Source: Colius striatus (lineage: Eukaryota; Chordata; Aves; Coliiformes; Coliidae). Taken from it: a stretch of 64,000 nt of DNA. Shown piece after piece: positions 3,872-47,421 of this stretch. The number at the start of each line of letters is the position of its first letter. The stretch's first letter is position 1. The notes beneath the pieces were generated by a model that was given only the letters and a program-made list of their open reading frames with translations, made no database searches and was not told the origin of the DNA. The position numbers and the translations under genes are program-made. The DNA is taken from NCBI RefSeq assembly GCF_028858725.1, contig NC_084759.1:91260889-91324888 (forward strand), read 5' to 3'.

Positions 3872-4029
3872 TCAGACTTGATTCTTCCAATTGTATCTTC
3901 CCATCTTTCGCTGGTACTGGAAAATGAGAAGGCTTACAACTGCTGGCACAAAAACACACACAGCAAAGGCAGTGAGGATGATGTATCCAACTCCCATTCC
4001 AGCCTCTTTATCTCTCTTCAATTCAGGTG
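3872..4029 (-). pseudogene. UMODL1: UMODL1 last exon (21): transmembrane helix and cytoplasmic tail
   Basis: Open frame ending in TGA at 3872-3874. It reads PELKRDKEAG, then a hydrophobic helix (GYIILTAFAVCVFVPAVV, SLLIF), then YQRKMGRYNWKNQV. Mammalian UMODL1 has the same layout (GLGAGY, helix, RYQRMNGRYNFK), but its tail runs about a dozen residues further. The acceptor is strong: a T-rich tract followed by TTTAG, with AG at 4030-4031. The exon starts with two bases of a split codon. No lesion is seen here. A possible variant poly(A) signal (ATTAAA on the minus strand) lies at 3406-3411, but it is weak evidence and the 3' end of the transcript is not defined. Confidence 0.85.
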
Positions 4030-4245
4030 CTAAAAAAACCACAAGAGGTGAAAGAAAAATAATTTTCTACATCTTTTCCTGGAGTAAGAAACAAACCAAA
4101 CAAACCTTGCCTACAAGTTAGCCATATTGAAGCCGAGAGCTGTGGTACAGAAGCAAATCAGTCTTTTGGGGAGAATGATTCTCATGGAAAGGTCTGAGCC
4201 ACAGTCCAAGTTCTCTTTTTAGAGAAGTGTAGAATCCCTGCAGAC

Positions 4246-4390
4246 ATGAGTTTGATGTATCTTTAGAATCTGAGTCTATAATTTTCTGTTTAACAAATAA
4301 AGGACCAGGACTAACGGCTTTCTGAAATGCTGCCTTGCTTTCAGAATGACCCTCATGGTGAAGCATTCTCCCATCTTCATCCTGCCTCCA
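4246..4390 (-). pseudogene. UMODL1: UMODL1 exon 20: juxtamembrane segment after the ZP domain
   Basis: Frame contains GRMLHHEGHSESKAAFQKAV and SPGPL, which aligns with the mammalian segment RLLQNSETSA...WGPL just before the transmembrane exon. Two acceptor AGs are close together: AG at 4396-4397 gives the wrong phase after exon 19, while AG at 4391-4392 (exon start TGG AGG CAG) gives phase 0, which fits. The donor is uncertain. The only GT in the phase needed by exon 21 is TCAT|GTCTGC, a poor match to consensus, giving an exon of 145 nt. The cysteine found just upstream in the mammalian segment (NCNNF) is not seen. Exon identity is likely, the ends are not firm. Confidence 0.65.
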
Positions 4391-5663
4391 CTCATCTACA
4401 ATGATTAAAAACACTTGATTTGCATTTATCTCATATGTAACCCTTCTTTAAACACACAGCATTTAGGGAAGTATTTTCCATATGTGCTGGCTCTCTAAGC
4501 TTCCCTTCTAGTCAGAAGAGACCTGTCGGGGGCAGCCAGTGGAGGCAGGTGAGTCACACTGAAGTTGGCACAGTGGGCTTGACTCTGTAGCCGAAGCACA
4601 GGCATCTAGTGCCAACTGAGAAGCCCAAGGACATCTACAATGCCTGCATAGGTCTGGTAGACATGGCATGGGACCTGCAGGAGAGCTATAGTCTTTCAGA
4701 ATAGCACCCAGAGAGTAAAGGGGAGGGAAATAATGAGTCACCATAGATCATGAGCAGTAAATGCCTATTTGTGGGCAGGAGACAAGTTCCTTGTTGCCAG
4801 CTGCCTCCTAAGGCTCCACTGGCCATCGACAGAACTTCTTCGCCTGGTTCACATATTGACACTTCCATGTATTTGTCCAAATCTGCAAGCAGAATGCCCT
4901 CTCCCTTTGACACTATGCCTCTATTGATGTTTGTATATGTATGCTTGCAAACTTCTAATTTATTCTTTTAAATGCTTGATGCACTTATGAAAACATTTAT
5001 TTGTTTGGCAACATTTTCAGGACAGGACTTATTTAGCCAAGCACTTGTGTAGCACCTGAGGTGAACAGAAGACAAATACTAATGCATACATGTCTGTAAT
5101 TAGTAACACAATCTTTAGCCAAAGGGCACTATTGGCAGCCACAAAGGTATGCAGTAGTAGTGTCCAAGCTACATAACATCCAGGGCATCATTCCAAGACA
5201 AGCCAAAGCAGTGTTGCATAATATATTTAGGCTTATTTCTGAATTTCAGTATGAAACAAAGGAAGAAAAAAGAAAATATACAGTAGAAATGGCAGCTTGT
5301 AGCCAGACATAGACAGAACGGGTCTTCCTGAGGACACTATCAGCATTCTTTGCTATAGCCTGTGGCCAAGCACTATAGGCAGAGCAGTTAAAGCTTTTTT
5401 CATATTTCACTGCAGAATCTTACCTGACATCATAATTCATGTTGCCTCCTTCAACACAGAGATGCATATCACTGTCTAGGCCTAGCCTCACACTTAAAAT
5501 GCAATGTGCTTATCCATCGCATTTTAGGTGTGAGGAAAGAGGTGGAAAGAGGTGACAACATCTAGTAGTGCCACCCTTGCCTAGGAATCCATTAGTACAA
5601 CTGAAATAACACTTCCATCACCAGCGTTCCTTTTGTGCAATGTTCATTTTTCAATATCAGAAA

Positions 5664-6046
5664 TCATAGAATTATAGGCTGGAAAAGATCTTTAAGATCA
5701 AGTCCAACCAGTAACCTAACACTGGCAAGCCCACCACTAAACCATGTCTCTCAGCACCCCATCTATATATCTTTTAAATATCTCCAGGGATGGTGACTCC
5801 ACGACCTCCCTGGGTAGCCCATTCCAATGTTTAACAACGTTCTTGGTGAAAAAGCTCTTCCTAATCTCCAATTTAAACCTCCTCTGGCACAACTTGAACT
5901 CATTTCCTTGTGTCCTATCATTCATTACTGAAGAGAAGAAATCAATCTCCGTCCCACTTTAAGGTAGTTATAGCGTGATAATGTCTCCCCTCAGCCTCCT
6001 CTTCTCCGGGCTAAATAACCCCAGCTCCCTCAGCTGCTAAATGTAT
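5664..6046 (-). mobile_element. CR1 LINE fragment, 3' end, reverse orientation
   Basis: Reads in reverse as a CR1 3' end: ATCATAGAATTATAGGCTGG, AGATCAAGTCCAACCAGTAAC, GACTCCACGACCTCCCTGGG, CTCAGCCTCCTCTTCTCCGG. The variant with CACTAAACCATGTCTCTCAGC suggests a different CR1 subfamily from most other copies in the window. Confidence 0.85.
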
Positions 6047-8022
6047 TGCAGTCTCCAATGAAAATGGGAGTGAGATCTGATGTAAGAGCTATACAAAGAA
6101 AGCTGTACCAATTGCCAAGTTTTGTAAAAGGATTCATTCAAAAATTAACACTGAAGGTCTACTCTAATAGGCTAATAGTCACATATAATGGAAGAAAAAT
6201 AGAATATGCTAAGTCAGAGATAGTTTCTAGATCCAAAGGGACATTGTGACCATCATAACAGAGGAGAAAAGAAAATCCTGAACCCACTAGCAGTCCAGCA
6301 TTAACTTATCTCCACACTTAAAAGAGCATTAAATGACTGGCAAAATAGAAAACCAGTAGGAGAAAAGAAGGTGACTTTGGTCTATTCCAGGTAGCTGTGT
6401 ATTAAAACTCTAACATTAGTGTGTACAAATATTCTCAATGAGTGTTTTATGCTAACAAGATATGAATGGAACTGGCTGGAGGAAGCCAAATGATTGAAAA
6501 AGTTAGAGACCAGAGGTACTCTTAAAACCATAATTGAAGTAAATGCAGAAGAGGCAGATGCAGAACAAATTGGACCCTGCTTGTACACAGTGCTGGTGTT
6601 CACCCTCAATTAACCTGTACTGTACCACCAGATTAATGAAGGTGCTGTGCATCAGCCATGTTCTGACACTTTCCTTCAGGGTGGTAATAAAGTCAATAAC
6701 AGGAAGTCTAAGGAAACAAAACAATACAATCTCTGATCTGCTCTGATGTTGGCCTTCAGAGCTCAATATAATTGCAGTCTAACTAAACAGTGCAGAGTAA
6801 ACACTTGAAAAACTTATTGGTAATAAACAATTTTGTGGCTGTTGCAGCTACCCTGTGCACAAACTGCTACATTATGCACTTTATCCTCTTCTTTTCTATT
6901 TCCCTTGACAATCTGTCAGTCACGTCAGTCACATCACTAAAGACGGCGCATGTTTTTCCACACTGCCACATGGCTTCAGTAAGGATGCCTGCTCCTCAGA
7001 AAAACATGCAGAGTGGCATGAAAACCTTGTATCGCATGGCTTCACGTTCCTTTGACAGTACAAAAGAATCTTGAAATGATAGTTACTCTGCATCCCCTTT
7101 TTGTCAGCATCCATTCATAACTCACCATCTGCTTTACATAGGGGTCCCCAAGATGTTCTGTGCCTAGTGAGGGTCTCACCAGTCTTCAGGGATTGAATCG
7201 TATAGCATCTCTGCAACAATCAATCAGTTCAAACTCCAACAAGTAATAAGGCTTACTAATTAAAAATACAAAGCCTTCTGTATGTGAAAGCCTGGCGCTG
7301 TTCTCACTCATTGGGGTTTTTGTTTCTTAATGTTACGCTTTGTTAAACTGAAATGAGCACCAAATGGAAGTTCAAAGGAAATGGCATTAGGGAAACATCA
7401 GCATAAAATGTGTAATTAGTCACACTGGAAAACACTGCTGTGAGCAGACGTTTCACACACAGTCTCTTTCTTTTCATTAATTTTCTGTTTATTTTAGAGA
7501 AATCTTGTGAGAGAATGAACTTCTCACTATTTCTATGTGCTGGGGTTCTGCAAACATTTTTGTTTGGATGTTTCTACTGCCCATGGCAGGCATAACAGAT
7601 ACTACAACCAACCCCAGCAACAAGCAACAGCAGCTTTCAGTCCCTGCCAAACTGTGTGTCAATTTGAAGCAACACACAACTCTTGAGTGACAATGTGAAC
7701 AACATATCTAGGAACCACTAGTCTGAAATTGCTACCCTGTGAAATGTTGGGGATTAGCTTTGTGTGAGCAGCACTGGCAGAACACACAGCACACTCATCT
7801 TCCGCACACTTCCTCGGTAGCACTGTTCGGTTTGCTTGCTAACTTTTTAAGTTGCATCCTAAAGGTATCTTCTGGGAACCATAGCTTGTTGAGGTTATTC
7901 CAAAGATACTGCGGCTTTCCTGGAAGTGCACATAAAAAGAGAAACTGCAGCATCATGCTACACTCAGCAAAAGAAACAGGGAAGTGCAAGGGTGCTTTAC
8001 CCTTGTCTACATGAGAATACCT

Positions 8023-8557
8023 CACCAGTACCCTTATGGGACCACATCTAGAATATTGTGTCTAGTTCTGCTCCCCTCAGTTCAAGAAATACAGAGAGCT
8101 GCTGGAGAGAGTTCAGCACAGGGCCACCAAGATGATGAAGGGAGTAGAGCATCTCTCTTATGACGAAAGGCTGAGAGAGCTGGGGCTCTTTAGCTTGGAG
8201 AAGAGGAGTTGAGGGGTGACCTCATTAATGTTTACAAACATGTAAAGGGTGGGTGTCAGGAGCATGGAGTCAGGCTCTTCTCAATGATGTCCAATGATAG
8301 GACAAAAGGCAATGACTATAAACTGGAACACAAGAGGATCCAAAGAAACACAAGGAAGATTTTTTTTCACTATGAGGGTGAGGGAGCACTGGAATGGGCT
8401 GCCCAGATGGGTTGTTGAGTCTCCTTCTCTGGGGACATTTAAAACCTACCTGGATGAGTTCCTGTGTGACCTGCTCTAGCTGATCCTCCTCTGGTAGGGG
8501 TTGGACTAGATGATCTTTCAAGGTCCCTGCCAATCCTTAAGATTTTCTGATTCTGTG
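8023..8557 (+). mobile_element. CR1 LINE fragment, 3' end
   Basis: Runs from CCACATCTAGAATATTGTG through GTTCAGCACAGGGCCACCAAG and GGAATGGGCTGCCCAGATGG to a tail with GATGATCTTTCAAGGTCCCTG and ATTTTCTGATTCTG. It inserts in intron 20 of the UMODL1 locus, antisense to the gene. Confidence 0.88.
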
Positions 8558-10621: not shown

Positions 10622-10781
10622 CATCCTGCAGGTGCTTCCTGGTGTTTCCATACATATACCAATTTTACAGTGTAAGTAAACCACAGAATTGTTGACAAAG
10701 GAAAAGATTTTCATCTTAAACCATGCTTTGCTTGAATTCCCATTCTGTATCAGCGTGGTATATGTGTTTGGGATGGGGCAG
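10622..10781 (-). pseudogene. UMODL1: UMODL1 exon 19: ZP-C domain, final part
   Basis: Open frame reading CPIPNTYTTLIQNGNSS, then KIFSFVNNSVVYLHCKIGIC and METPGSTCRM. It matches mammalian UMODL1 closely (SCPVPNTYTNVIENGNS, SIVYLHCKLRVC). All ZP-C cysteines of this segment are kept. Acceptor CCTTTTCAG and donor ATG|GTAAGG are both good. The length of 160 nt (1 + 53 codons) joins exon 18 exactly, with the split Ser codon AG|C, and ends in phase 0. No lesion. Confidence 0.9.
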
Positions 10782-11589: not shown

Positions 11590-11826
11590 CTGTTGCTGAT
11601 AAAAGCAAATGAGAAGGGATCCACTGAATTATTAGTTGGAGTTGCCCAGCAGTCAGTGAGGACGACCTTGACCTTGCTATCTGCTCTCTGGATGTCCACT
11701 TCGATTAGTACCTCATTACTGGCAGAGACACTGAAACTTTTTGGTATTGGAGAATTTCCAATAAACAACTGCATTTCAGTTCTGAAGTGTCCAGATCCAT
11801 GCAAATCCTCAAAGATAGTGTAAAGT
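11590..11826 (-). pseudogene. UMODL1: UMODL1 exon 18: ZP-C domain, first part
   Basis: Open frame: LYTIFEDLHGSGHFRTEMQL, FIGNSPIPKSFSVSAS, LTDCWATPTNN, DPFSFAFISN. It is strongly similar to the mammalian segment (YTIIEDLHGAGNF, EMQLFIGDSPIP, ECWATPSSN). The CWATP motif cysteine of ZP domains is present. Acceptor TTATTTCAG and donor AACAG|GTACAG are usable. The 237 nt (1 + 78 codons + 2) keep phase with exons 17 and 19. ZP-C normally helps ZP proteins polymerise into filaments. No lesion in this exon. An 18-bp tandem duplication (11522-11557) lies just beyond the donor, inside the intron. Confidence 0.9.
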
Positions 11827-12941: not shown

Positions 12942-13084
12942 CCTTCTGCAATGTATCCAGAGGAAGTCAAGAGATCATTTTGAAACATATGGTGAATGGG
13001 AGTGGCAACTTTTAAGTGGTGGATTACTCCCTGAGCAGAAACGTCATTCCAAAGGATGGTTTTCACCACAGTATTAGTAATGTT
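12942..13084 (-). pseudogene. UMODL1: UMODL1 exon 17: end of ZP-N, linker to ZP-C
   Basis: Open frame: NITNTVVKTILWNDVSAQGV, IHHLKVATPIHHMFQNDLLT, SSGYIAEG. It aligns without gaps with the mammalian NMTNTVVRTTLRND...FQNDLLTSSG. Acceptor GTGCTGCAG and donor GG|GTAAGT are strong, and the 143 nt keep phase (0 to 2). The fourth conserved ZP-N cysteine (KYCAF in human) is replaced: the bird reads IHHMF. In the ZP-N fold this residue pairs with the first cysteine (VFCEIEK in exon 16), so a core disulfide should be missing even though the frame is open. Confidence 0.88.
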
Positions 13085-13773: not shown

Positions 13774-14223
13774 AGTCTCAACTTCAGTGCCACAGTTGCT
13801 CCATCCTGCCTGCAGCACAACATGAGTGCCATTGCTGATGCTCACATTGCAGTGAAGCTCCCCCAGGTATAAGGAGGTTTCAAGGATAGATTCCTGCTGT
13901 AAAAATCTCTTCTGGATGGCAAGGACAATCTTCTCAATTTCACAAAACACTATCACTGCATCTTTAATGGAAATCTCCTGGGCAGTTTTAAGGAGGGGAA
14001 CAGGAGATGCTTGAGGAGAAACATCAAGAATTGACACGGGATCCATGGTGAGAGGATTCAGCACCTTTGTGGAGAATGTGGAGTCCTCTAGAGCCTTGTG
14101 TTCAGTAATAGAGAAGTACAATGAAGCAGGGGAAGAAACATGAGTTGAAGTTTGCAAAGATGTTGCAGGTAAAACTGCGATGTATACAGGTTTCTTATCC
14201 ATCACTGTTGCCTTCTGGCTCAT
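13774..14223 (-). pseudogene. UMODL1: UMODL1 exon 16: Ser/Thr-rich stem and ZP-N domain
   Basis: Long open frame: a Ser/Thr-rich stem (TSLQTSTHVSSPASL) followed by ZP-N with VFCEIEKIVLAIQKRFLQQE, ELHCNVSISNGTHVVLQAGW and SNCGTEVET. Three of four ZP-N cysteines are here. Donor ACT|GTAAGT is good (phase 0). The 5' edge is uncertain. Exon 15 ends in phase 1, but no upstream AG gives that phase. AG before CCAGAAGG (minus strand) has a good pyrimidine tract, yet its phase meets TGA after a few codons. AG before TACCTATA gives phase 0. A frameshift near the start is likely. The ATG at 14221-14223 is not followed by a signal peptide, so it is an unlikely start for a secreted protein. Confidence 0.85.
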
Positions 14224-15292
14224 AGGAAATGTTGAAGAATGAAAAAAATATAGGTACTGTTATAATCTACAGGTTTAGAATTATTTCACAAGGTAAAAAA
14301 ACTCTTAGGGGGAAATTCACAGTTACTGGCAGGATACTAGTTCATTTAACTGGCTCTACTTACTGACAAAGCCATGGCTTCTTTTAAGAAAAAGCCCAAG
14401 AGACACATAAAGTGCCAGTGAGTAAAGCTGAAGTGCCTTCCTTCCTGAGAGATGCAATAATTAGTATGCTTAAGTCAAACACATATAAGCAGCTTTTGGC
14501 AGATCACTGCTTGCAAGAGATCCCGAACTGTAAGTTGCATTGCAAGTGTCCATGTGTTTTTGCCTAGTAGTATAGGAGACTGCAGACTTCTGAATGTGAA
14601 AAACAGAAGCAGTTTGTGTAAAAACCTAGCACCATTTGTGACCAGTTGGTATCCAAAAGATATGACCCTGAGAGCTTTGGAAAACCCATTTTGAGGGAAG
14701 TAGGGGACAAACCTCATGTACTAGGCCCACACTGCACATGTGTGTCCTGAGATACAGGGTAGGGAGTTGAACAAATGTGTCAGGAGCAATCTTTGATGGT
14801 TTCAGGAGGAAAGCAAGCAGGGGAAAAGGGGCATTACAGGTTGTGATCAATATGTATGTTGAATACTAAACATCCAGCACAGGCTCTGGGGTTATCCCAT
14901 TGCTCTTTGCTGTTAGAAACAACCAAAGTAATCATCTACCATTGACTTAAAGAGCACCAAGATAATAAACTTCATTTGCAGTGAAAAAGAAAGGATGTGT
15001 CTCATAGTACAAAAATTCTCTTAAATAATTTTAATGGGTTGGGCATACAAATAACATCGATTTTCCAAACAACATATAAAATCTGTACACATAAATATCT
15101 TTCTGGAACTCCCCAGCTTTTAGACATGCCCCAAATAAAAGAGTTGCTGACTTGAATGTAAGAGGAAGAAAAATAAAAGTCTGAGCTCTTTCAGAGCTGT
15201 ATTTCCCAAAAGCTCATTATCACAGTGCTAAATATCTTGGTTAAACAAAACCAACAAAAGGTTGGTATCAGTTGACAAATCCTTGTGACTTC

Positions 15293-15548: not shown

Positions 15549-15686
15549 CTTCACAGCTTCTTCCAGGCCTTTCTGGATGCACATCAGCAAATCCTTCATT
15601 GCAGCTACACTGGTAAAACCCAAGTGTATTATGGCACAATGCATCCGGGGAGCAGTCATCCTCTTCGCTTTCGCATTCATCATAAT
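15549..15686 (-). pseudogene. UMODL1: UMODL1 exon 15: calcium-binding EGF domain 3, donor lost
   Basis: Frame: DYDECESEEDDCSPDALC, HNTLGFYQCSCNEGFADV, HPERPGRSCEG. It matches the mammalian third EGF (DYDEC...NTLGSFTCSC...RPCEG), with all six cysteines and the DxDEC calcium-binding start. Acceptor CCAAACAG is present. The predicted length equals exon 10 (138 nt), its internal paralogue. At the expected donor the sequence is GAAG|GAAAAA: the GT is GA (15547-15548). No usable GT follows before an in-frame stop a few codons on. This is an apparent splice-donor loss. Confidence 0.88.
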
Positions 15687-17201: not shown

Positions 17202-17415
17202 CGTTTATGGAGAGACTGCTCTTGTCAACTCTGAAATAGGAAGTGTGTTCAAAGGCACCACGGAAAGTGGTGATGATGTAGTAGATGTCCATGTCTTCTG
17301 CAATCAGTAAATTGAAACTTACCACTGTGCTCCCATTAGTAATACTTGTTATCAACACTTTAATCAGACCAGCATCCATCTTCTGAAGAACCTCAAGGGG
17401 CAGAGATCTATGTAC
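17202..17415 (-). pseudogene. UMODL1: UMODL1 exon 14: SEA domain (module C), second half
   Basis: Open frame of 71 codons plus one base: VHRSLPLEVLQKMDAGLIKV, LITSITNGSTVVSFNLLIAE, DMDIYYIITTFRGAF, and KSSLSING at the end. It aligns with mammalian MDAGGVRMEVVSVTNGSIVVEFHLLI. The conserved SEA hydrophobic core and the NGS strand turn are kept. Acceptor TTATTCCAG and donor AACG|GTAAGG are good. The length of 214 nt is the reference for the paralogous exon 9. No lesion. Confidence 0.88.
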
Positions 17416-17849
17416 CTGGAATAACAACAAAGCGCCTGTGTAAAGGGACAGATGGAAGCAACTGTATTTTAGGCTTTGAAGGCTGCTCAGAAGAGAGTAT
17501 TATGTATTACAATTGTGCTTCATACTCTGGAAGGAAGCAGCAGTAAATTGACCTTTTGCTTTATAACTTGACAGTAGCTGAAGGATGTAGTATATATTTA
17601 AAAATTAACATTAAACATGTTAAGCAATTAAGATATCTCATCTCTCATTTGGCACAGGTCCTTGCATCTGATAACAGCAGAGAGAGGAGGCTTCAGGGAA
17701 GCTTTCATGTTGAGCCTCTCAAAATGCCTCCAGGGAAGGGGAGCAACACAATACCAGGAGGAGTTTCTGACAGAAGTGGAGATGCCTCTTGACACTCCAG
17801 CCTGCATATATGTCTCAGTGTCAGGAGGTTGGGACATTCCTTTTTTCTA

Positions 17850-18118
17850 TAGTAGGTAGTAACAGGACAAAGGGTAATGGGATGAAGGTGGAACACAAAA
17901 AGTTCCACTCAAACATAAGAAAAAACTATTTCACCGTGAGGGTGAGGGAGCCCTGGCACAGGCTGCCCAGAGGGGTTGTAGAGTCTCCTTCCTTGGAGGT
18001 CTTCAAAACCCACCTGGACATGTTCCTATGTGATATGATCTAGGTGAACCTGCTTCTGCAGGTGGGGGTGTGACTAGATGATCTCTAAAGGTCCCTTCCA
18101 ACCCCTACCATCTCACAG
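17850..18118 (+). mobile_element. CR1 LINE fragment, 3' end
   Basis: AGGACAAAGGGTAATGGGAT, GAGGGAGCCCTGGCACAGGC, GGAGGTCTTCAAAACCCACC, GATGATCTCTAAAGGTCCC, CTACCATCTCACAGAATTTG. It lies in intron 13 of UMODL1, antisense to the gene. Confidence 0.88.
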
Positions 18119-22073: not shown

Positions 22074-22186
22074 TTTATCAATGAAGAGCTGTGCAAAGGT
22101 TTGGAATTCCTCACTGCTTGTATTGCTGAAGCCTGGAGAGTATTTAATGTTTGTTAGCCATACTTTGCCACTAAGTTTTTGGACAG
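22074..22186 (-). pseudogene. UMODL1: UMODL1 exon 13: SEA domain (module C), first half
   Basis: Open frame: AVQKLSGKVWLTNIKYSPGF, SNTSSEEFQTFAQLFIDK. It aligns with mammalian AARKLIGKVRIKNVRYSESFRNASSQEYRDFLELF. Acceptor TTACTTTGCAG and donor AAA|GTAAGT are close to consensus. Length 113 nt, phase 1 to 0, exactly as exons 4 and 8, which are its duplicated copies. No lesion. Confidence 0.88.
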
Positions 22187-24570: not shown

Positions 24571-25335
24571 CGCAGCCCACGGCTGGGCCTGCCGTCGGGC
24601 TGGGAGCTGGAGACACACCTGGTGAAGATGGTGACCCTGTGACTCCACTATTCTCCTCAGACCAGGTGCTATTCTCACTTCCCATCTCAATATGTGCTCT
24701 GAGAGTGGTGTTGAGGGTGGGAACGCTAGCATCCCCTAAGGCCAGCAGAGCTGCACCACCTTGAGAGCTGGCTTGAGGTATGCCAAAAGCTGAATGACTG
24801 CTGGTGGTGGCAGAGACTGTTTGATTTGGAAACACCAGCAATGGTGAACTAAGTTGCTCTTGCCCGGCTGTGCACATAGGCATGCTTGTGAGAGCAGCCA
24901 TTTGCTGTGATGCTCTGCTACAGAGTTTTGTTGCGATGGACTTAAAGCCAACCACCACTCTGCACTCATGGTCAGCACCTTGCTGTCCGTGAATCCTCTG
25001 GCCCTGATGCTGTTGTCACTGCCAAAGCTCATCTGTGAGGCCAGGCTTTCTTTCCAAGAGGCTGGAGAAACGCTGGTGGGCAAATAATTGTGGGGTGTTT
25101 GCTTGTCAGCCAGGGGCAGGCGTACAGTGGGGCTCAGAGCCTACAGCAGCCACCACCTCGGTGGTTACAGGGGAAGCAGGACCTGCACAGCTTACTTCTT
25201 CAGGGGCAAACTCTGTGCTGTTTGTTATTTCAGGAGTCATTGTTTCAGTGGGAGGGTCCACAATCTCACTTGCAACACAGCAAAGGCACATTGAAATAGG
25301 ACTTTAAATTGGATGAAGAGGCACCAGGGTCTGAC
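24571..25335 (-). pseudogene. UMODL1: UMODL1 exon 11: Ser/Thr/Pro-rich linker with three in-frame stops
   Basis: Acceptor TCCCATTTTCAG and donor TGCG|GTGAGT are excellent, and the 765 nt keep phase with exons 10 and 12. The single joining frame is rich in Ser, Thr, Pro and Ala (DPPTETMTPEITNSTEF, SPLLVFPNQTVSATTSSHSA, SENSTWSEENSGVTGSPSSP), as expected for an O-glycosylated stalk. Mammals have a shorter, poorly conserved linker at this point. The frame is broken by TAA (25304-25306), TGA (25106-25108) and TGA (25016-25018). A second open frame in the middle (24736-25083) does not join either neighbour in phase. Identification rests on splice sites, phase, position and composition rather than similarity. 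Confidence 0.72.
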
Positions 25336-25821: not shown

Positions 25822-25959
25822 CCTCACAGTTTCTTCCAGGTAGGGATGGATTGGTATCCATAGTTGTCTTGCATCTGCACAGGTATGAGCCCATCAAATT
25901 GAAACACTGTGCAAACACAGAGCAGTCATTCTCAACATCAGAAGTGCATTCATCCCAGT
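25822..25959 (-). pseudogene. UMODL1: UMODL1 exon 10: calcium-binding EGF domain 2
   Basis: Open frame: DWDECTSDVENDCSVFAQC, FNLMGSYLCRCKTTMDTNPS, LPGRNCEG. It matches mammalian DWDEC...CINLEGSYTCQCRTTRDATPSRAGRACEG, with six cysteines and the calcium-binding DWDEC start. Acceptor GTCTTACAG and donor GAGG|GTGAGC are good. Length 138 nt, phase 1 to 1, the same as exon 15. No lesion. Confidence 0.9.
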
Positions 25960-29410: not shown

Positions 29411-29623
29411 CTTCTACTGTGGTGTTTTGCTGATCCACCAAAAGCACAGAGCTGTTGTGGAGGAGAGAAAACACTGGGACAAAAGTGGAGGCATCAACTC
29501 GGGATCCTGCACAGTGATCCTGAGCCTCACAATGATGCTTCCAGCTTGAAGAGATTCAGTCTGCACTTTCAGCTTCCCAGATTTGTACAAAGCAGAAATG
29601 TTGGGTGGAAATGAATGTTCAAT
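29411..29623 (-). pseudogene. UMODL1: UMODL1 exon 9: SEA domain (module B), second half, frameshifted, donor lost
   Basis: Starts after CTTTCTTCAG with IEHSFPPNISALYKSGKLKV, SLQAGSIIVRLRITVQDP, close to mammalian SFPPVVSDLYRSGKLRMQIVSLQAGSVVVRLKLTVQDP. After PPLLSQ (near 29471-29473) homology moves to another frame (FSLLHNSSVLLVDQQNTTVE), while the first frame runs into TAG. Adding one missing base gives exactly 71 codons plus one base, the length of paralogous exon 14. At that end point the donor reads GAAG|GGTTTT: GG instead of GT. So there is one deletion and, apparently, one lost donor; a GT one base further would give the wrong phase. Confidence 0.82.
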
Positions 29624-31746: not shown

Positions 31747-31859
31747 CTCTATAAGCAACAGTCTTGAAAATTCTTCATATGCAGATCTGCTAGAATTGTG
31801 GAAATCATCAGTGAAGTTGTAGTTGAGAACTCTCATAGTAACACCAAATACCTTGGCCT
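31747..31859 (-). pseudogene. UMODL1: UMODL1 exon 8: SEA domain (module B), first half
   Basis: Open frame: EAKVFGVTMRVLNYNFTDDF, HNSSRSAYEEFSRLLLIE. It aligns with mammalian NAQVFEVTIKIVNHNLTEKLLNRSSVEYQDFSRQLLHE. Acceptor ATCCTACAG and donor GAG|GTAATA are usable. Length 113 nt, phase 1 to 0, as exons 4 and 13. No lesion. Confidence 0.87.
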
Positions 31860-32689: not shown

Positions 32690-33474
32690 ATAATAAGATC
32701 TAGACTGGCTTGAGAGTAGGGCAGAGAGGAACCTCATGAGGTTCAACAGGGGTAAGTGCAGAGTCTGGGAAGGAATAACCCCATGCACCAATACAGGCTG
32801 GGGATTGACCTGATGGAGAGCAGCTCTGCAGAGAGAGACCTGGGAGTCCTGGTTGATAACAAACTAACCATGAGCCAGCAATGTGCCCTCGTGGCCAAGA
32901 AGGCCAATGGTATCCTGGGATGCATCAAAGAAGAGTGTGGCCAGCAGGTTGAAGGAGATTCTCCTCTCCCTCTACTCTGCCCTGGTAAGACCACATCTGA
33001 AGTCCTGTGTGTCCAGTTCTGGGCTCCCCAGCTCAAGAGGGGATCAGGAGATGAGGATTGGGGTCACCAAGGTGATCAGAGGACTGGAACATTTCTCTTA
33101 AGAGGAAAGGCTACAAGATCTCGGGCTGTTTAGACTGGTAAAGATTGAGGTGGGACCTTATCAACACTTACAAGAGAGGATAGGGCCAGTCTTTTTTCTC
33201 TGGTGGCCAGTGACAGGACAAGGAGTAATGGGCACAAGCTGGAACACAGAAAGTTCTGCTTGAAAATGAAGAGAAACTTCTTTGCTGTGGGGGTGAGGGA
33301 GCCCTGGCACAGGCTGCCCAGGGAGGGTGTGGAGTCTCCTTCTCTGGAGGTTTTCAAAACCCACCAGGACGCATTCCTGTGTGATCTAATCAAGGTAAAA
33401 CTGCTTTAGTAGGGAATTAGAATAGATAATCTCTAGAGGTCCCTTCTAACTCTGACCATTCTGCGATTCTGTGA
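32690..33474 (+). mobile_element. CR1 LINE, 5'-truncated with remnant of the reverse transcriptase C-terminus
   Basis: Carries GAACCTCATGAGGTTCAAC, CCTGGGAGTCCTGGTTGATAA and TGTGCCCTCGTGGCCAAGAAG, which encode the CR1 polyprotein C-terminal region (residues like SAERDLGVLVDNKLTMSQQC), followed by the 3' UTR and tail GATAATCTCTAGAGGTCCC, CATTCTGCGATTCTGTG. The frame is broken repeatedly. It lies in intron 8 of UMODL1. Confidence 0.9.
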
Positions 33475-34154: not shown

Positions 34155-36873
34155 CTGCAGAGGGATATATTGCAGTTGCAGGAAGAGTCATCTCAGAAAA
34201 AGCAACATTTAATCTTTAAAATGTTTTTCTGTTCTAAATCCATTATAGACAAGCACTTTGACAATCAATAGGGGAAGCTCCTCCTTATCATCATGACAGA
34301 GGCTGTTCCTTTCATACTACCAGGTCTCCCTGTCCATGAATCGTCCCACTAGAGTGATTGAGTGCTTACTCTTCTTATCTCCTTTTATTGCACATATTTG
34401 TGTTGACCCTCTAGTAATAATCAGCCATGATCTGCAGGTTCAAGCAACAGGAGTAAGTTTGAAACAGTGAATCTGCAGACTCTACATATATTGACACCTG
34501 CTTTGCCTCTTGTCACTTTAATCATCAAAATGCATCTCTTCAGGCAAAGGCTGCCTGAATTTATCCCTGGAAAAACCCCACAGACTCCATCTTATAGAGG
34601 CTGGGGACAAAGCAGTGAGCAGCACTTCACCTATTTATGCCACTCTGGTCCAGTGCAATCATTGTTATGTCAATGGGAAAGGACAGGACCCTTCAGAGAT
34701 TATTCCTTTCCTCCAAAGAGGAGGTGTCTAAATTGGGTAGAATGAGTTGCCCTCCAGCAGAGACTGTCTACACTACTTCAGAGTCCTGACTAGACACCTC
34801 TCCTGTAAATAGCTGGAGTCAGGTAACATGAATAGCATCCCCCATGCTAAGCTAGAGTCTGGCATACTGCTTCCACAACTTCCATTCTTTCACAATAATG
34901 ATTAGCCTGAGAAAAAAGGAGTTTATTTTCTTAAATTGTTTCAACAGGACACAATTGTTTCTAGGACTCAGAGCCAGGTGATTGCCAAACACTTCCAAAG
35001 CTATATCACCCCTGCGCTAGAGGGACTTCAGTGTAATTCCTCCAGCTTCATCTTGGACCAGAAGTTATGGATGAAGATCAAGAATATGCAGACTGTCTGT
35101 CTGAACTAGCAAAGGACTACTTAATGGGAAGAGCAGGATGTTGTTAAAGGGGTTGTGGTAACTCTTTCCTGAAAGGGCTCAAGTCATCCATATAAAGAGA
35201 AATCTACTGGTATTTGTTCCCATCATAGTCAGCTATAATGTATAGCAGGGAGAATATTCACGAAAGTTGTGTCTGACCTCCCTAACTCATGTCTCCCACC
35301 ATCTTCATAGACTCAAAAGCAAGAGGTCCACGTCCCAATGGCTGTGGCCAGAAGGAACTCCTATGGTCAGTAACAGATCCTCCTATACCTTGTTCCAGGA
35401 CAAGCTGGGTCCAGGGGCAATGAGTGATGCTGGCCTTGCACGGCCATCACTACCATGCTTCTCATGCTTGAGGACTATCCACCACAAGCTCTGTGATGGG
35501 ATCTGCACTTGAATGCTTCACGAGGCACAAGTGGCTCAAAGCCAGCACGGCCACCTCCACTTCCAGGAGGCCAGTTCCCTTCAGTAGCCATGGGAATAAC
35601 AGAGATTCTGTGGTGGTCACTGCAATACAGACTCTGATCCAAATGTCATGTTGGGGAAGATTCTGTCTTTCCACTTCCATAGGCAGAGATTCACTTCAAA
35701 ATTATTACCAGGTTCTGTGAACACTCTCCTATAACCTAAACAGCTCCAGGATAAAGGGATCAAAGAGTATTTGAATTAAAAGCAAGAAAATATTCATAAA
35801 AATTCAAGGTTACTTGCAGCACCCAACATCTATAGATTGGTTAGTCATGGACAGGAGACTTGAATTACTTTTAGATGGGGAGCTATTGCTGCTGTTATTG
35901 AGATTCAATGCTGAGCTTGGAGTAGATGCTGCCATGCCTAGGGGAAATATAGCATTATCAAAGAATTAAAGCATTCCAAGCAAAGCAAATCCAAAATAAT
36001 ACCATTCACGTTTTCTGCAGCTGAAAAGCAGCAACGGAAGTACTACAAATAGAAATCAAAATAAATGTATTAGCATGTCACAAAAGCATAAAATAATACA
36101 TTCTCTTAATTTTGGAGATTAAAGGATTGTAAAATGGTTTTCTGACTAAAGCAATGAATCTGCAAGCACTTACTTATCTCATTATCTTTAAGCCTATTAG
36201 TGGCCCCCCGGATGTCTGTGGGCTGTAAGTAGATGCCTCTATATTTTGCTGAAGTGGTAGCACAAAGCATTATTTCACCCATGGCCAAGCTCCATCTGCC
36301 TCCAGCAGAGGACCCTGTATAATCCAAGGTGGGATTGTACAACACTGAGTCCCGGCTGCAGTCAAAATGGGAAGGAGGGTTCATGTCTGGAACAAGCTGC
36401 CCAGGGGGGTTGTGGAGTGTCCTTCCTTGGAAGTCTTCAAGGCTCACCTGGACATGTTCTGGACCTGCTTCTGCAGAGGGGTTGGACTAGTTGATTTCTA
36501 AAGGTCCCTCCCAACCCCTACCGTTCTATGAATCTATGTACAAATAGCATTACTAATCGATTTTGCCTGGGAGGCTGCAGCGGTGGTGAGTGACTTGCTC
36601 TGAGAAGCAGTAAGGGTCTGAAGCTAGAGGGTTTGGCAGCTGAGTGAGGACAGCTGAGGATGAGACAGGACAAACAGTCAAGTACTGTGAAATATGTACA
36701 CTGCATTTCAATTGGAAATAGCTAACCACTGGTTTACGTGGCATCTTCTCTCAACAGGAGGAGAAGGCGCACTGAGTGCTCCAGAAAGGTGACTCTTGCA
36801 CTAGACCACCAAGTCCTGCAGAAGAATTCTTGGTATTCTTGGTATATCCCAAGATGAAATCTATGTTTCTTAC
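34155..36873 (-). other. UMODL1 intron 6
   Basis: 2.7 kb between FN3 exon 7 and EGF exon 6, with a CR1 3' fragment at 36385-36538. No coding similarity was found otherwise. Confidence 0.6.
36385..36538 (+). mobile_element. CR1 LINE fragment, 3' end
   Basis: GGAACAAGCTGCCCAGGGGG, GGAAGTCTTCAAGGCTCACC, GGACCTGCTTCTGCAGAGGG and the tail CTACCGTTCTATGAATCTATG. It lies in intron 6 of UMODL1, between exons 7 and 6. Confidence 0.82.
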
Positions 36874-37002
36874 CTTCCTTTCTTGGGTTCAGCTGATGAA
36901 GGTTGACATGCTGAGGTTCGCAGCTGTAATAACCCTCCAGATTTACACAGATGTTTTCCTCAGGACAAGCATTGAGTTCAACATAGGCACATTCATTGAC
37001 AT
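36874..37002 (-). pseudogene. UMODL1: UMODL1 exon 6: EGF domain 1, cysteines lost
   Basis: Open frame: DVNECAYVELNACPEENICV, NLEGYYSCEPQHVNLHQ, NPRKE. It matches mammalian DVNECFYEELNACSGRELCANLEGSYWCVC...SPRK. Acceptor TTCTTCTTAG and donor GAAG|GTAAGA are good; 129 nt, phase 1 to 1. The fifth EGF cysteine (WCVC in human) is absent (YSCEPQ), and the sixth, supplied by the start of the next exon in mammals (DCPPV), is also absent (VKNHR). The EGF fold could not form all three disulfides. Confidence 0.87.
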
Positions 37003-37963: not shown

Positions 37964-38156
37964 CTTGTACTTCCATGTCAATCACTTCATACACATGCTT
38001 CACAATGTCCTTCAAGGAAGAAGTAACCTTTGCCAGCAGAGCTGGCTGTTGCAAGCCAACAAGAACCTGGGAGGCCACTGTCCCAATATATACGTCTGCA
38101 CGTCTACTCTGTATATGGTATGCAGAGACATTCAAGGGCTGTAATGCACCAGTAAC
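37964..38156 (-). pseudogene. UMODL1: UMODL1 exon 5: SEA-like domain (module A), second half
   Basis: Open frame: VTGALQPLNVSAYHIQSRRA, SQVLVGLQQPALLAKVTSS, LKDIVKHVYEVIDMEVQ. It aligns with mammalian VTSALQPM...ISTLLGDIAKRVYEVISVQVQ. Acceptor TTTTCCAG is strong. The donor CAAG|GTTAAT is weak. Length 193 nt, phase 0 to 1, joining exon 6 through the split Asp codon G|AT. No frame lesion. Confidence 0.85.
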
Positions 38157-39779: not shown

Positions 39780-39892
39780 CATGGAGTGCAAAAGGCGTGA
39801 ATGATTCAGAAGGTGGGAATCCACTCTGATTGGTTCATTAAAATCCATTTTCACAAGCATTGTCACATTGTACCAGAATGTTCCCCCGAATT
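39780..39892 (-). pseudogene. UMODL1: UMODL1 exon 4: SEA-like domain (module A), first half, acceptor lost
   Basis: Frame: WYNVTMLVKMDFNEPIRVDS, HLLNHSRLLHSM, matching mammalian WYNVTILVKMDFKELQQVDPRLLNHMRLLHSL. Donor ATG|GTATGT is good. At the length of its paralogues (113 nt, exons 8 and 13) the exon would begin at 39892, which gives the correct phase and residue count, but the preceding dinucleotide reads AC (39893-39894) instead of AG. No AG exists between the coding block and 39918-39919, and that one puts the exon out of frame. This is an apparent splice-acceptor loss by one substitution. Confidence 0.83.
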
Positions 39893-40138: not shown

Positions 40139-40174
40139 CCTGGAATTGATCCAAATATCCTGGAACTGATCCAA
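40139..40174. repeat. Short imperfect tandem duplication
   Basis: CCTGGAATTGATCCAAATAT is followed by CCTGGAACTGATCCAAAG, one substitution in the shared core. Local slippage in intron 3 of UMODL1. No function is visible. Confidence 0.75.
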
Positions 40175-40292
40175 AGCAGATTCCCATATTTGTTTTGTGG
40201 AGAGCTATGGTAACAGTTTTCCTTCCCACCCTCAGAAGGAAAAACTAAGCGCATTTCTATTAGAAGCAGTCTTGGATTTATCAGTAACATAC

Positions 40293-40454
40293 CCTCTGGC
40301 ACTGGATCCACACAGCCTGTTCCTTTGGATGAGTTGCAGCGTTTTTCAAGCCCTGGACATTCAGTATCGAACGTGCAAGTGTAATTAGATGTTTGTATAT
40401 TCTCAGATGGACAAATACCAGGTCTTGAGGCAAATATGCTGGATCTATTGAGTG
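40293..40454 (-). pseudogene. UMODL1: UMODL1 exon 3: WAP-like domain, one cysteine lost
   Basis: Open frame: ALNRSSIFASRPGICPSEN, TSNYTCTFDTECPGLEKRC, GTGCVDPVPEG. It matches mammalian PLNQSGQFTSRPGACP...CSLDIDCPGLEKCCPWSGGRYC. Acceptor TCACCTAG and donor GAGG|GTATGT are fine; 162 nt, phase 1 to 1. The paired CC of the WAP motif (EKCC) reads EKRC: codon CGC, one transition from TGC. WAP folds are held by disulfides, so this change should destabilise the domain. No frame lesion. Confidence 0.87.
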
Positions 40455-40705
40455 CTAGGTGACAAAAAACATTTCTGAGAACAAAAATATAGAAAACCGT
40501 TTCCATAAAATTGTGCTGTTTTATTTATAGTAAACACCTCCTCCTCATTTCACAAGTGTGTCTGTTCTGAGGTTTTCACTGGGAGGAAACAGTAGCCTAA
40601 AATACCATTGTTTTCATTTTAAAACTGCAAATGTTGTCAGATATTTCTCTTGTTTGTGACATTTCTGTTGCAGAAATTTTTAATTGATCATTTTCCATTA
40701 ATAAT

Positions 40706-40764
40706 GATAGATGGATGGATGGATGGATGGATGGATGGATGGATGGATGGATGGATGGATGGAT
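40706..40764. repeat. GGAT tetranucleotide microsatellite
   Basis: GATAGATGGATGGATGG... continues as a near-perfect four-base repeat of about 13 units, in intron 2 of UMODL1. Confidence 0.95.
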
Positions 40765-43700
40765 AGTTTATATATATTTCGTTTCTACATGTAGAGACAC
40801 TGAAGCACTGCAAAACAGAAAATGTGCCTGATGTCAGCTATGACTAATCCAAATAATATATAATGATCAAAGAAAATGGGTAATGTTTAAGCTGGAAATC
40901 AGGAGGTTTCATTTAACCTTTGGTAAAGTTAACCTTTAGTTATAGTAATTGAAGATGTTACTTGAAAGGGGAGGCACAGTGCTGTCCTTAGGCACAGTTA
41001 GGTGGGTTATATAGAGGGACAGGAGAGCATAATTGAGCCCATGGTCTGCAGCCTCACAGCACTCACTCTGAATCTGCCAGCCACCACAGGAGGTTGGTAG
41101 CCCCCACCAGTCAGCCCTGCAGATAGAACAGTGAAGGCAGGGGGTTGCTGCTTCCCAAGCTGAGGGAAGCATGTACTCTTTTGCATATGAAAACAGAAAC
41201 TCTTTCTAAGCTCTACAAACATTACTTTCACCCATGCTCTCAAACATAGCTGCAAGTAATGCTCAGATCCAGTCTTGTCCATCAATCTAAAAGGTTTCTC
41301 TTTTCCATTCAAGTTTTTAGTCCTAAAAATTCTTGATCCATTCCTGAGCAACTAAAGCCATCCACTGGATGTGAAGTCATATATGCATAAAGAAATAGCC
41401 TATTAAAACCAGTGGTTTTAAGATTATGATCTGTGTCTCTTGCAGGCACAAAGTATGTTTTTCAAGGGTCTCTGAAAGGTAACTAAGAAAAGCATAAGTA
41501 TAGCTTCATGACGAGGGTCCACATCTCTGCTGGAAAACCTGCCAAAACTCACAAATATAATAGGAAAGAGAACAGGTAATGCATTGAGCTGATACTTCTT
41601 AGCACTGTGCAGGTTATTTGCAGGTGTAATTTCAAAGATTTGCATGCAGATTATGAAACAAGCACTTTCCCACACGACTTTAGATCATATTTTGTACACT
41701 GTGTGTATATACTTTGTGTGCACACAGCCAATGAGTGAGTGCTTTAACAGGGCTGTGGATATCTTTCGAGTAAACTTGGTGTTAGACCCACAAGAGCTCT
41801 GGGGAGTAAATTAGGAAACTCTGTCCCTGCCTGGAAAAGGGAGAGAAAGAAATCCCTTGCTTTCCAACCAGGTGGATCTTTGTAAGCATGACACAAGCAT
41901 CTAAATTGCTCCAGCTCTGCATTTCAGGTTCAGTTCAAGCAGGTTTGAGGTTCAAAGCAGCTTGTTCCAGCAGGGTCTTTTTTTTGGCATGTTTAATTGT
42001 AGTGTAAAAGATTTAACGAGTCAGATGCAATCTCAGAAAACACTACTGAATCCTGGCCGAGTGCCATGCTAGCCATTTATTTCAAATCAAAAGGTCACCA
42101 TTTTCAGATCGGCGGAAACAGAGATAGATTCACATCACATTTATGCCTAATTGTACCAGATGCACTTGGAAAATCTGATTTACGCTCTCCAATCAAGTTG
42201 GGGACAGTCACCTACCAAGCAACACTGACAGCACTGGGGAGCAAGCCAGCCAATCCCCCTGTCGGTTGGATAAAGCGGAGGTTTTTCTCTTCCATTATCT
42301 ACATAAATGCACAGAAGCAAAAATGCAGCACCTAGTGCTTAGCAACCAAAGCTCAGTTACCAACCTGCCCACATGAGAGCCTCTGGGTCTGCCGTGACCA
42401 CAGGATGGGGGTGGATCTCCCAGGAGACAGATGCTGAGGGACTCCATTAACTCAGCCATAAACCCCCCCTTCCTCTGCCTCTATCCACCTGGAGGAAACT
42501 AGTTTCATTCAGAAGGTGCGGCAGAGCCAGGGACCAAAACCCTGCATTCATCGCAGGCGTCAGAAGGTGGAGACAAATCTGTGTGATCATAGAAAGAGCT
42601 CCTGCAAAGCGTGTTGCTAAGACAAACTGTCGGTTTTCATCGTATGACTCCAGTTTCCGGGTCTTTGAGTACAGGTGGAGCTTACCTGCTCAAACGGATG
42701 TTTTCCAGCCGGATTGCCTGCCTGGGGCTTGCTTAATCAGGATGGAGGGCAGCATTGGGATGCGCTGTTTCAGCTGACAAATTTTTAACACCCTTCCTTC
42801 TGAAAAGCTGTGTCACTCACTAGAAGATACTCAGGAGCCACAGGCTGAAATTCGGCAAGGGCATGGCTGTTAGACAATGTGGGGAAATGTCAGAAAGCAC
42901 AAACCCAGTTTGTGTGTGCTCAGAAGAAACTTAATGAAATTTAGTCAGTGCCAGCTCCAATGGGTTCATTGAGCTTGCAGCACTGTGACATGGCCATGCT
43001 CTGCCCTGTCAGCACTCACACCAGCAACTCGTGGAGACCCATCAGGAACACATGGTGAGCACACAGATCAGGTCAAACTCTGGGTAATCCTGTTTACCCC
43101 ATGGTTAATTTTTTCAGGAATGGCATGGGGTGAGTAGCTTAATGGAACAGATAATTTGCAAGGAGAAAAAACTAAAAAAAAAGCTGGGGCTTTTTTTGCT
43201 ATGGAAAAGAGAAGGCTGAGAGGGATGCAATCAAGCTTCACAAAATCTGAAAAGCAAGGGATATTTAGCTGAGTCCACAATAATAAAGCACACACTTCTT
43301 TACCCAAATACGAGTCAACTTCTGCAATTTGTTGGCACAGAAGAGCGTGAAGGCTGACAGCTTCGGTGGGCTCAAAAAATGCACAAGACAATTCCCAGAC
43401 AGGAGACCCATAAGCAGACTCCATGGGGAACAGGCAGTGACATACCCTCTGACACCTGTCATTCCATTTCTGTGGCTGCTGGGAGCACACAAAGCACAAA
43501 CCACAGGGCAGCCAGAGACATCTGCTTCTGGGTGAAGTCCCATAGGGCATTTAGCCCTTTCCCACCCTGGAGAGATGTTACAATGCTGCTCACATGTCCC
43601 TGGTGACACTGCTAAGTGATGGCTTTTCGGTGACAGCCCAAGCAGGGTGGGCAGCTGTGCCAGAGCTCCTCATTGCTTCAGTCAGACCCAGCATGCAAAT

Positions 43701-45803
43701 ATCTGCACACAGGCTCCGAAAGGTCCCAGCCCTGATGAGGAGATACCTGGCCACATAAAATGAGGAGTGTTTTACTTTACAGTTGTTTTTATGAAAACCG
43801 GGAAGTTACACACAAATGGTACTCTCATTAAAATGTAGCCTTAACATTGCAAATGAAGTTAGGTTAAGAACCTCTAGGATAAAGGTTGTCTGGCCCTTCT
43901 TATTTCAAAGTATTTATATATTTTTTTCTTATATGTTTTTGTTCATGTGTGCTTAAAAAGCAGCCTTCATCACACGCTGATGCACCCCGTCTCTCCCTGA
44001 CTGGAAACTAAGCAGAGGTAGAGGGCAGGTAAGGAAGTTCTCTGCTTTCCGCTTACACAGTAAGGTGGAAGGTGGGCAGCAAACCAGTCACCAGGAGAAG
44101 TAACCGTGTCGTTGATTTAAGCAGATGGAAATAAGCCTGGAGAATTGGACCCTGTCTTTGCCTACAAGAAATTCCTGCAAGATGCTGGGAAAGACTCATA
44201 CAACACATTGATAACAGCCTTCGAGAGGCATGGGTTTTGCAACCCCAGGAACCTAACCTGCAGCCCTGAGACCTGCTTAGCAATCAGGGGACTGCTCACA
44301 GTCACCATCAAAGGCACAAGGCTCTGCACTCCAACCATGCAAGTTGTTAATGGCAGCCCTAAGCACTCTGAAAAACAAAATACATTTTAGAAAACCCCAA
44401 AACACATCCTAGATGTCTTAGAGTAGGCATACAAAATGGTTCAAACTCAGCCTTTCTGCAGCTCAGTGGCCCAGCTGTGAGAGACAGAGAACGTCTCTCC
44501 ATTCCTGCAGACTTTGTGAAGACTAATTGCTATCTGTGAATTGCCTCAGGATTCACCTCAAGAAGTGATAAATAATTCTGTGTTCAGAGAGACGCTCAGC
44601 AGAGCGGTGCGTCTCCACTCAACATGGAGTTCAGGATGATGTGCTGCTGGAAAGCTCCCTAGAGGGGCTCCATCATCCCTGAGCACCACACAGAAATGTG
44701 GTCCTTGGGCAAGGCAGCATCTGATCACGTAATTACAGTTTACAAACCTGCATCTATAGGCGTAAAGAAAGGAAACAAAGATTTATTTTATTTAATTCTG
44801 CTTTTAGAATTAATTCTAGCACTTTGTAACTTTTAGATAATTAGCTTTGCAACTTTCATTTTTAAAAAGTTGAAATAGTTTGCATGTGCAATGTCATCCT
44901 TAATAGACTGATGGGTGACTTGTGAGAACTACCACAGCAAGTCAACCGGTTATATAGACATTTTTTCCCCAACAGTAAAGAAATAAGAAAAATAGCATCT
45001 GCCATACTCCAGACAGAGGTAAATGTTTCCTTCTAGGAAGAAAAGGTGGAGAACAGCCAGGAGCAGGTTACTGTGAAAGGTCATGCAGACCTTTTTGCTC
45101 CTAGTAGGATGGAGAGCATGCCAGCATGGATAACATCAGGAAGAAAATAACAGTAGTTCAACAGCATGCTGTGCAGTAACTTCTGCAGTTGCAGTTTCCC
45201 TTTTCATCATTTATTTAAGACTGTGTCTAGACAGTGCATTACCACTCAGAGAATTTATGACTAATGCCCTGAAAAGCAAAGATGCCGGAATAATGTAAAC
45301 ACAGAAATCACCTAGAAACCATACAAAACCTTTCATGGTTTTAAATATTCCCCAATACACTTTGACAGGGAAAAAAAAAGTCAAGATGACCACAGAATTT
45401 CATGGACAAACCTGCCCAGAGTGCCCATCAAAAATGTGGCAAAGGCAGATCAGAAAATCTGCAGCTAAGCTTTACAAGAGATTTCCAGATTGGTTCATGT
45501 TAGGTAAAATAAGCTCAATAGCTCTCAAGCCTAAAATACCCCTAGAGATCATTTTAAATGCACTAGAATTATTCTGGGAAAAAAATATTTGAAGTGTTAC
45601 CAGGATGCCTTTTTTCCCACCCAAGTAGACAGTCTCGATTTTCAGAGGCTCTGAAACACCTTGAAAATACTGATAATTTGTAGTTTCTTGTGCAAATAGA
45701 GACAACCACAACTAGCTAGTGACTCATCAACATTTGACAGAAATATTTCCGTGTTCTACAGAATTAAAAAGCACTTTCCTCTGATTGCTTCTCAGTCTTG
45801 TAA

Positions 45804-45849
45804 TTTGATATACATGCGCTTGCATGTATGCATGTGCATGTATATCAAA
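45804..45849. repeat. 14-bp perfect inverted repeat (hairpin)
   Basis: Left arm TTTGATATACATGC (45804-45817) is the exact reverse complement of right arm GCATGTATATCAAA (45836-45849), with an 18-base loop that is itself rich in GCATG/CATGC. It lies in intron 2. It may be a tiny foldback element or expanded purine-pyrimidine sequence. Confidence 0.85.
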
Positions 45850-47181
45850 AAGGCTTTTCTGAAGTGCACATTCAACACTACTTAGATCTACTGGAGATTT
45901 TCCCCAGCATGGAACTGCTGTTTGGAAAACACATACGATCAACAATGAGTCTGTGCCAGTCTGAGAAGAATGCCTGGTCATGTTGTAACAAGCAGGTCAA
46001 ATTTTGCCCTGGATGATACTTCACAACAGCCACAGAGCCAAATAATTGAAGGAAACAATAAATGAGGGATGATGTATATCTAATTATGCTTTCATTCCTC
46101 TTCTCTAGAACGTAATTTAAAGAACAACTGAAGCACAATGACCACTTTTTGTGTTCTCGTCTTTCTGTTAATGGAATTTTTCTGCTATATACTACTAGTA
46201 ACTGTTGAGGAAATACCTTGCAAAAAATCTTTGGAGGTCCATTTCCAATGCTCTGAAGTAACTTAAAAGCAGGATGAACACATTGTTCTTTACAGATCCC
46301 ATGACGAGACATACGTCTCATATCCTCTCATGTCATGTCATATGATCCAATGCAGGAGCAGGTTCAGGGACATTCCCATAGAACTGAGTCACTCAAGTCT
46401 TATGACCCAAAATGAGGGACAGAGCTGCAATTGGACCTTTATTTTTCAATCTTTTGTTACAGTGTTGAGACTATGCAAAATCATGGGATGATAAGTTGAA
46501 AAGGGGAAACAGAGAAAATGCAATGTCATACTGAAAATAAGAGACAAAATTATGTCTTGCAGAACTCTTTTGGATACTGAAATAGTTCATTGCTGGCCTA
46601 GTTAACCCAAGATGCCCATTCAGTTTAAAAGTATGTGGCTTTATTCATTAAAAAAAAAAAAAAGGTTCCTTTTCCCCAAAGAATCCTTTCAACTTATGAC
46701 TTGAGTTCTGCAAAAAATCAGCAGTTTCTTGTTGACAACTGATAGCCTTGATGTGTGAAGGGGAAAAATCTTTCATTCGAAGCAAAGATGATTAAGTCTT
46801 CCCAAGCAGAGTTCTGTTAAAACTCAGAAGTTAAATCACATCCACCAAAAGGTTCACTACTTTTCAGTTCCTCAACATAGCCATAGATAACCAAGGAAGC
46901 CGTGAGAAAATGGATCCTAATACAATTTTGATTGAAAAGCAGTTGAATTTGTGATTAGGGGTGGCAGAGAGCATGAACCAGGAGCATTAGTCTTTCCTAT
47001 CTACTCCTTACCATGTTGGATCAAGTTTACTATAGATTTTTGCAGACTGATTTCAGAGAACAGAAACCTCTTGCCCATAACTGAACGAAGCCTTTGTATG
47101 TCTCAGTTTAAATGAGACATACATAAATGAGTTATTCTGTCACAACCATTTATTTCAACTATTCATCTCACTAAAACTTAC

Positions 47182-47421
47182 CTAAAGACCAGTAGAGTCC
47201 AAGTTGTTCATATCCGTCACAGCAATCTGCAAGAGTAACTGTTTCAGGGACTTCAACAGTATGATACTGCATTTTATAGTACATCCAGGGACACATCATC
47301 CATGGTATCCATCCTCCACAGGAAGTCTTTTTCTCATAGGACTTTTGGTAGGCAATCATTTTATATACGTTCTTGGTCACATAATTGCACAGATGGTATC
47401 CTAGCAAAGACAAGCCTTTCT
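47182..47421 (-). pseudogene. UMODL1: UMODL1 exon 2: EMI domain, last cysteine changed to Trp
   Basis: Open frame: EKGLSLLGYHLCNYVTKNVY, SYEKKTSCGGWIPWMMCPWM, TLADCCDGYEQLGLYWSL. It matches mammalian EKGLSLLGYQLC...SCGGWIPWRRCPKM...DCCEGYEQLGLYC. Acceptor TTCCTTCGTAG and donor TTAG|GTAAGT are strong; 240 nt, phase 1 to 1. The EMI domain starts right after the signal peptide and mediates protein-protein contacts. The final EMI cysteine (GLYC) is TGG, Trp, here (GLYW). The frame is open. Confidence 0.9.

Follow-up and report, generated by a model that had tools for sequence, protein, structure and literature searches.

Unitary pseudogenes of vertebrates, like gene deaths in general, are a known kind of event, and as a class they are the closest described counterpart of the locus reported here: in both, a single-locus, intron-bearing gene appears to have decayed in place. 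There is no difference in kind between the two, and what is new is the gene and the lineage. The gene is UMODL1 (uromodulin-like 1, also called olfactorin), found in a 64-kb stretch of bird DNA that was analysed as a whole and is referred to below as the window. Chicken UMODL1 is reported to be pituitary-enriched, with mean FPKM values of 1.3, 1.52 and 2.55 (PMC5148799). UMODL1/olfactorin is reported to control the migration of GN11 neurons in vitro and to affect GnRH projections and olfactory axons in living zebrafish, in which knock-down of UMODL1 disturbs GnRH3 neurites (PMC8874799). Among the papers listed in literature searches on UMODL1 or olfactorin, no title or abstract opening mentions its loss in birds.

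The UMODL1 genes of Fregata, Nipponia and Sarcoramphus have the same exons in the same order as the window. The window copy, however, contains stops, frame-breaking changes and non-canonical splice sites, and most of the predicted proteins that are filled at these lesion sites have residues there. Judged from its sequence, the UMODL1 of this bird is very probably dead.

Organization of the UMODL1 locus

UMODL1 lies on the minus strand of the window from 52260 to 3841, with 22 exons in order and its introns kept. A tblastn comparison of the Fregata protein against the window gives matches exon after exon, and the E values (exon 2, 2.5e-39; exon 18, 2.8e-38; exon 16, 1.0e-46) are so low that the likeness is not due to chance. 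The proteins most closely related to the window gene are those of UMODL1, and its exons and domains keep their order. In the Pfam comparison WAP, calcium-binding EGF, ZP-N and ZP-C score above the cut-off set for each and SEA scores below, and a search of solved structures returns three weak EGF matches, to the N-terminal part only. The first-pass annotation had described ordered UMODL1 exons with many inactivating changes, and both tblastn and the avian alignment agree. It had also reported exon 1 as missing and the gene as extending from 3872 to 47421; exon 1 is in fact present at 52260-52185, with two in-frame stops, and the true span is longer, the orthologous frame ending at 3841. Its exon numbers are assumed to be those of the present model minus exon 6b, and its lesions fit this numbering. 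The exons are as follows.

52185..52260, minus strand: exon 1, signal peptide; located by tblastn of avian N-termini (84% over 25 residues)
47182..47421, minus strand: exon 2, EMI-like region; canonical splice sites
40293..40454, minus strand: exon 3, WAP domain (PF00095); canonical splice sites
39780..39886, minus strand: exon 4; acceptor at 39888-39887 is CG, not AG
37964..38156, minus strand: exon 5; canonical splice sites
36874..37002, minus strand: exon 6, calcium-binding EGF; canonical splice sites, four residues deleted in frame
35818..35937, minus strand: exon 6b, Ser/Asn-rich; similar to P0002 and P0168
33912..34166, minus strand: exon 7, fibronectin III; stop TGA at 34104-34102
31747..31859, minus strand: exon 8; canonical splice sites
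29411..29623, minus strand: exon 9; deletion of about 7 bp near 29497, frame shifted
25822..25959, minus strand: exon 10, EGF; open frame, canonical splice sites
24571..25269, minus strand: exon 11, Ser/Thr/Pro-rich spacer; acceptor at 25271-25270 is AA
22523..22755, minus strand: exon 12, second fibronectin III; TAG at 22660-22658, 3′ end breaks the frame
22074..22186, minus strand: exon 13, SEA domain (below Pfam cut-off); canonical splice sites
17202..17415, minus strand: exon 14, SEA domain (below Pfam cut-off); canonical splice sites
15549..15686, minus strand: exon 15, calcium-binding EGF; donor at 15548-15547 is GA, not GT
13774..14231, minus strand: exon 16, linker and ZP-N; acceptor at 14233-14232 is AA, not AG
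12942..13084, minus strand: exon 17, ZP region; canonical splice sites, Cys to His
11590..11826, minus strand: exon 18, ZP-C; canonical splice sites
10622..10781, minus strand: exon 19, ZP-C; canonical splice sites
7126..7210, minus strand: exon 20; canonical splice sites
3841..4029, minus strand: exon 21, transmembrane segment and tail; +1 frameshift at 3889-3886

Exon 1 lies 4.8 kb upstream of exon 2, reads MARITLISALILWAATE*GRGN*IT and ends in the donor GTGAGT. Two segments upstream of it on the minus strand resemble predicted N-termini of other UMODL1 proteins. The one at 60580-60497, which reaches 8.3 kb beyond the start of exon 1, is similar to that of Rissa (75%), and the one at 52681-52628 is similar to that of Falco (72%). 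Either may be an alternative or untranslated 5′ exon or conserved non-coding sequence. With its introns, its 22 exons and a 5′ flank that matches as far as 60580, the copy is not a processed one and probably sits at the orthologous UMODL1 locus. No neighbouring gene was identified within the window. Self-similar repeats resembling fragments of CR1 LINE elements are located at 55039-55843, 32697-33473, 8032-8557, 17819-18111 and 5737-6034, and self-similar sequence makes up 4.9% of the window in all, a load that does not point to one of the repeat-rich birds.

Comparison of the read-through translation with the protein collection yielded 403 homologues within the length limits, and the 120 best are all birds by name. 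Among these best 120 of 403, BLASTP identity is 54–81% over 34–100% of the query, and 65–68% in most of the top-scoring rows. When the two halves of the protein were searched separately, the C-terminal one matched 57 sequences and the N-terminal one 20, with a top identity of 82% in each among the matches listed; none of these half-protein matches is a close relative with a fragmentary prediction. The alignment has 131 rows, comprising the window, the 120 listed homologues, P0121-P0125, P0168 and four non-avian sequences. The 126 avian rows among them include some species twice and many partial predictions. Orthologues are known here as predicted proteins only, which are open by construction and so unable to reveal frameshifts or splice losses in the relatives, and the lengths of deletions and insertions are inferred by setting the window DNA against the relatives' proteins.

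Inactivating changes compared with avian relatives

There are several kinds of lesion, and they begin in the first exon. Right behind the signal peptide, exon 1 has in-frame stops at 52209-52207 (TAG) and 52194-52192 (TAA), at sites where most of the avian rows that are filled show Q (25 of 27) and E (26 of 29) respectively, so that translation from the exon 1 ATG ends after 17 codons. The stop in exon 7 replaces a tryptophan that is present in all 121 filled avian rows by alignment count, and in 96 of the 126 by a strict pattern search. The TAG of exon 12 is not counted as a sure lesion because the exon is carried by so few relatives, with more than 40 of its 71 residues found in only 14 of the 126 avian rows. 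Its absence from most avian rows could reflect skipping, an omission in annotation, or a wider decay of the exon among birds.

By inference, the reading frame is broken in exon 9 (-7), exon 11 (-5 and -13) and exon 21 (+1). In exon 11 the inferred deletions are of 5 bp near 25134 and 13 bp near 24914, and another frame is read between them; in exon 21 the frameshift leads to an early TGA at 3874-3872 and leaves the last 14 residues of the relatives out of frame. Some of these lesions differ in nature from how they had been annotated at first. Exon 11 does carry lesions, but the two TGAs given as its stops are in a frame that the relatives do not use and result from the frameshift. A frame lesion was rightly placed in exon 9, though about 7 bp are lost there and not a single base. 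Exon 12 contains a TAG and has a 3′ end that breaks the frame; the single-base deletion given for it is not supported, the sequence reading VWRE where relatives have VCRE, in the same frame.

Thirty-five of the 42 splice sites are canonical. Four of 21 acceptors are not AG (exons 4, 7, 11 and 16) and three of 21 donors are not GT (exons 6b, 9 and 15). The corresponding junction pattern is present in 113 of 126 avian rows for exons 3 and 4, and in 35 of 126 for exons 15 and 16. The orthologous acceptor of exon 7 is AT, with an in-frame AG 12 nt further on, and the donor position of exon 9 is GG, with a GT one base on. Exon 6b, which is not in every avian model, has a GC donor at 35817-35816; GC-AG introns can work. 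The donor of exon 12 is intact (GTAAGT at 22522-22517). The loss of the exon 16 acceptor, the exon 9 donor shift, the exon 7 acceptor change and the GC donor of exon 6b come in addition to the lesions that the first-pass annotation had listed.

Three of 37 near-invariant cysteines are replaced: by Trp in exon 2 (C in 116 of 118 filled avian rows), by Arg in exon 3 (C in 119 of 119) and by His in exon 17 (C in 124 of 124). Exon 2 also has an in-frame deletion of one amino acid. The window has seven real gap runs, and none of the 126 avian rows, which are predicted proteins, has any of them in common. At each of the seven, residues are present in 95 to 123 of the 126 rows, the rest being partial or differently modelled.

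Drift, tree position and age

At alignment columns conserved to at least 97% the window departs in 30 of 440 (6.8%), whereas the avian rows (n = 126) have a median of 1.1% and reach 6.5% at most; P0123 (Acanthisitta) comes near it, at 17 of 261. At the 99% columns the window departs in 15 of 272, and two avian rows are higher, P0099 (Bucco) at 17 of 275 and P0062 at 18 of 258, the latter when the local filter is not applied. Since one or two other birds exceed the window at this stricter threshold, drift in amino-acid sequence alone would not prove loss, and it is the lesions that are decisive. The rate of departure from conserved residues varies little along the gene (7–8%): at columns conserved to at least 95% they number 21 of 283 in exons 2–10, 5 of 70 in exons 13–15, 12 of 168 in exons 16–19 and 3 of 36 in exons 20–21 (exons 1, 6b and 12 have too few filled rows for this count, and exon 11 has three such columns). 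No part of the gene thus looks guarded, and an even spread of this sort is the pattern expected of neutral decay.

A quick tree built from 71 protein rows places the window inside Neoaves (fork 99, starred), on an end branch of 0.31 compared with a median of 0.1. Other UMODL1 branches are long as well: that of Turnix (0.35) exceeds the window's, and those of Calyptomena and Bucco measure 0.29 and 0.28. The window stands beside the trogons in this tree with a support of 82, which does not amount to a firm placement within Neoaves, and the rare shared residues and gaps of the avian rows indicate no clear sister. A tree of 41 rows puts it beside the pigeons instead (support 84). In a test of these two groupings, constraining the window with the trogons raised the log-likelihood by 61 (p-AU 0.96), so that the free 41-row tree is a poor one.

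Raised departures or long branches are seen elsewhere in P0099, P0123, P0070 and P0071 (Bucco, Acanthisitta, Turnix and Calyptomena), and the UMODL1 models of Ara ararauna and Empidonax traillii are labelled LOW QUALITY. UMODL1 may have been lost or relaxed more than once among birds.

The age of the loss can be approached in three ways. The in-frame stops, four when that of exon 12 is counted, correspond to about 0.02, since 179 would be expected for each substitution per site. Plain changes of the splice dinucleotide, four among 84 bases (exons 4, 11, 15 and 16), lead to a value of about 0.05, and the surplus of departures at conserved columns to about 0.025. With an avian neutral rate near 0.002 per site per million years, we infer as a crude estimate that the loss is roughly 10–25 million years old. 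The description of the loss as fairly recent in the first-pass annotation is fair, as identity to the avian consensus is 81–100% in 18 of the 23 exon segments with enough columns.

Alternative histories and significance

We have little doubt that the window holds the neoavian UMODL1 locus, in which the gene was lost in its own lineage and has been decaying since. One or more early inactivating changes would have ended selection on UMODL1, after which neutral drift would have let lesions of several kinds (stops, small deletions, altered splice sites, lost cysteines) build up along the whole gene, leaving no working protein. On the evidence of the DNA itself, the copy is a lineage-specific pseudogene and probably a unitary one. 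The unitary pseudogene, already proposed on first annotation, is supported as the best reading by the introns, the 22 exons and the 5′ flank together with the stops, the deletions and the losses of splice sites and cysteines. Speaking against a loss are the good preservation of the sequence, in which most splice sites are still canonical, and the longer branch of Turnix.

An intact gene seen through sequencing or assembly errors is very improbable. Any one single-base lesion, taken alone, could be an error; the lesions, however, are of many kinds, with stops and altered splice sites next to replaced cysteines and deletions inferred to be of 5, 7 and 13 bp, and the raised rate of departure at conserved columns extends along the gene. 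Nor is it at all likely that the gene is partly retained, with an internal promoter yielding a short ZP and transmembrane product from exons 16–21. Exons 17–20 do have open frames and canonical splice sites, and exon 16 has further AGs downstream of its lost acceptor, but exons 16–19 have drifted like the rest (12 of 168 conserved columns, compared with 21 of 283 in exons 2–10), an invariant cysteine is gone from exon 17, the tail is frameshifted, and the signal peptide of exon 1 would be missing from such a product.

That the copy is a dead duplicate, and that this genome has an intact UMODL1 at another place, has a small chance of being the explanation, slightly above that of each of the preceding two; 22 exons, introns and a 5′ flank matching the predicted N-terminus of Rissa UMODL1 instead fit the original locus. 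A UMODL1 that is dead in birds generally would account for the long branches of Turnix, Calyptomena and Bucco and for the two LOW QUALITY models, but it is hard to reconcile with 403 homologues, the best 120 of which are all birds by name, or with the place of chicken UMODL1 among pituitary-enriched genes (PMC5148799), and we consider it the least probable of all.

Ordinary in kind, this pseudogene owes its interest to the proposed olfactory and reproductive role of UMODL1. The protein is extracellular and still held by many other birds, and its loss could help to show what it is needed for. A bird living without UMODL1 would serve as a natural knockout and would test whether the olfactory or GnRH role is dispensable. 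A wider loss, dating back to the common ancestor of an entire neoavian clade and accompanied by a change in olfactory or GnRH-neuron development, is a speculative extension that we regard as rather unlikely. If it were true, all members of the clade would lack, as natural knockouts, a protein that is linked to olfactory axons and to the migration of GnRH neurons.
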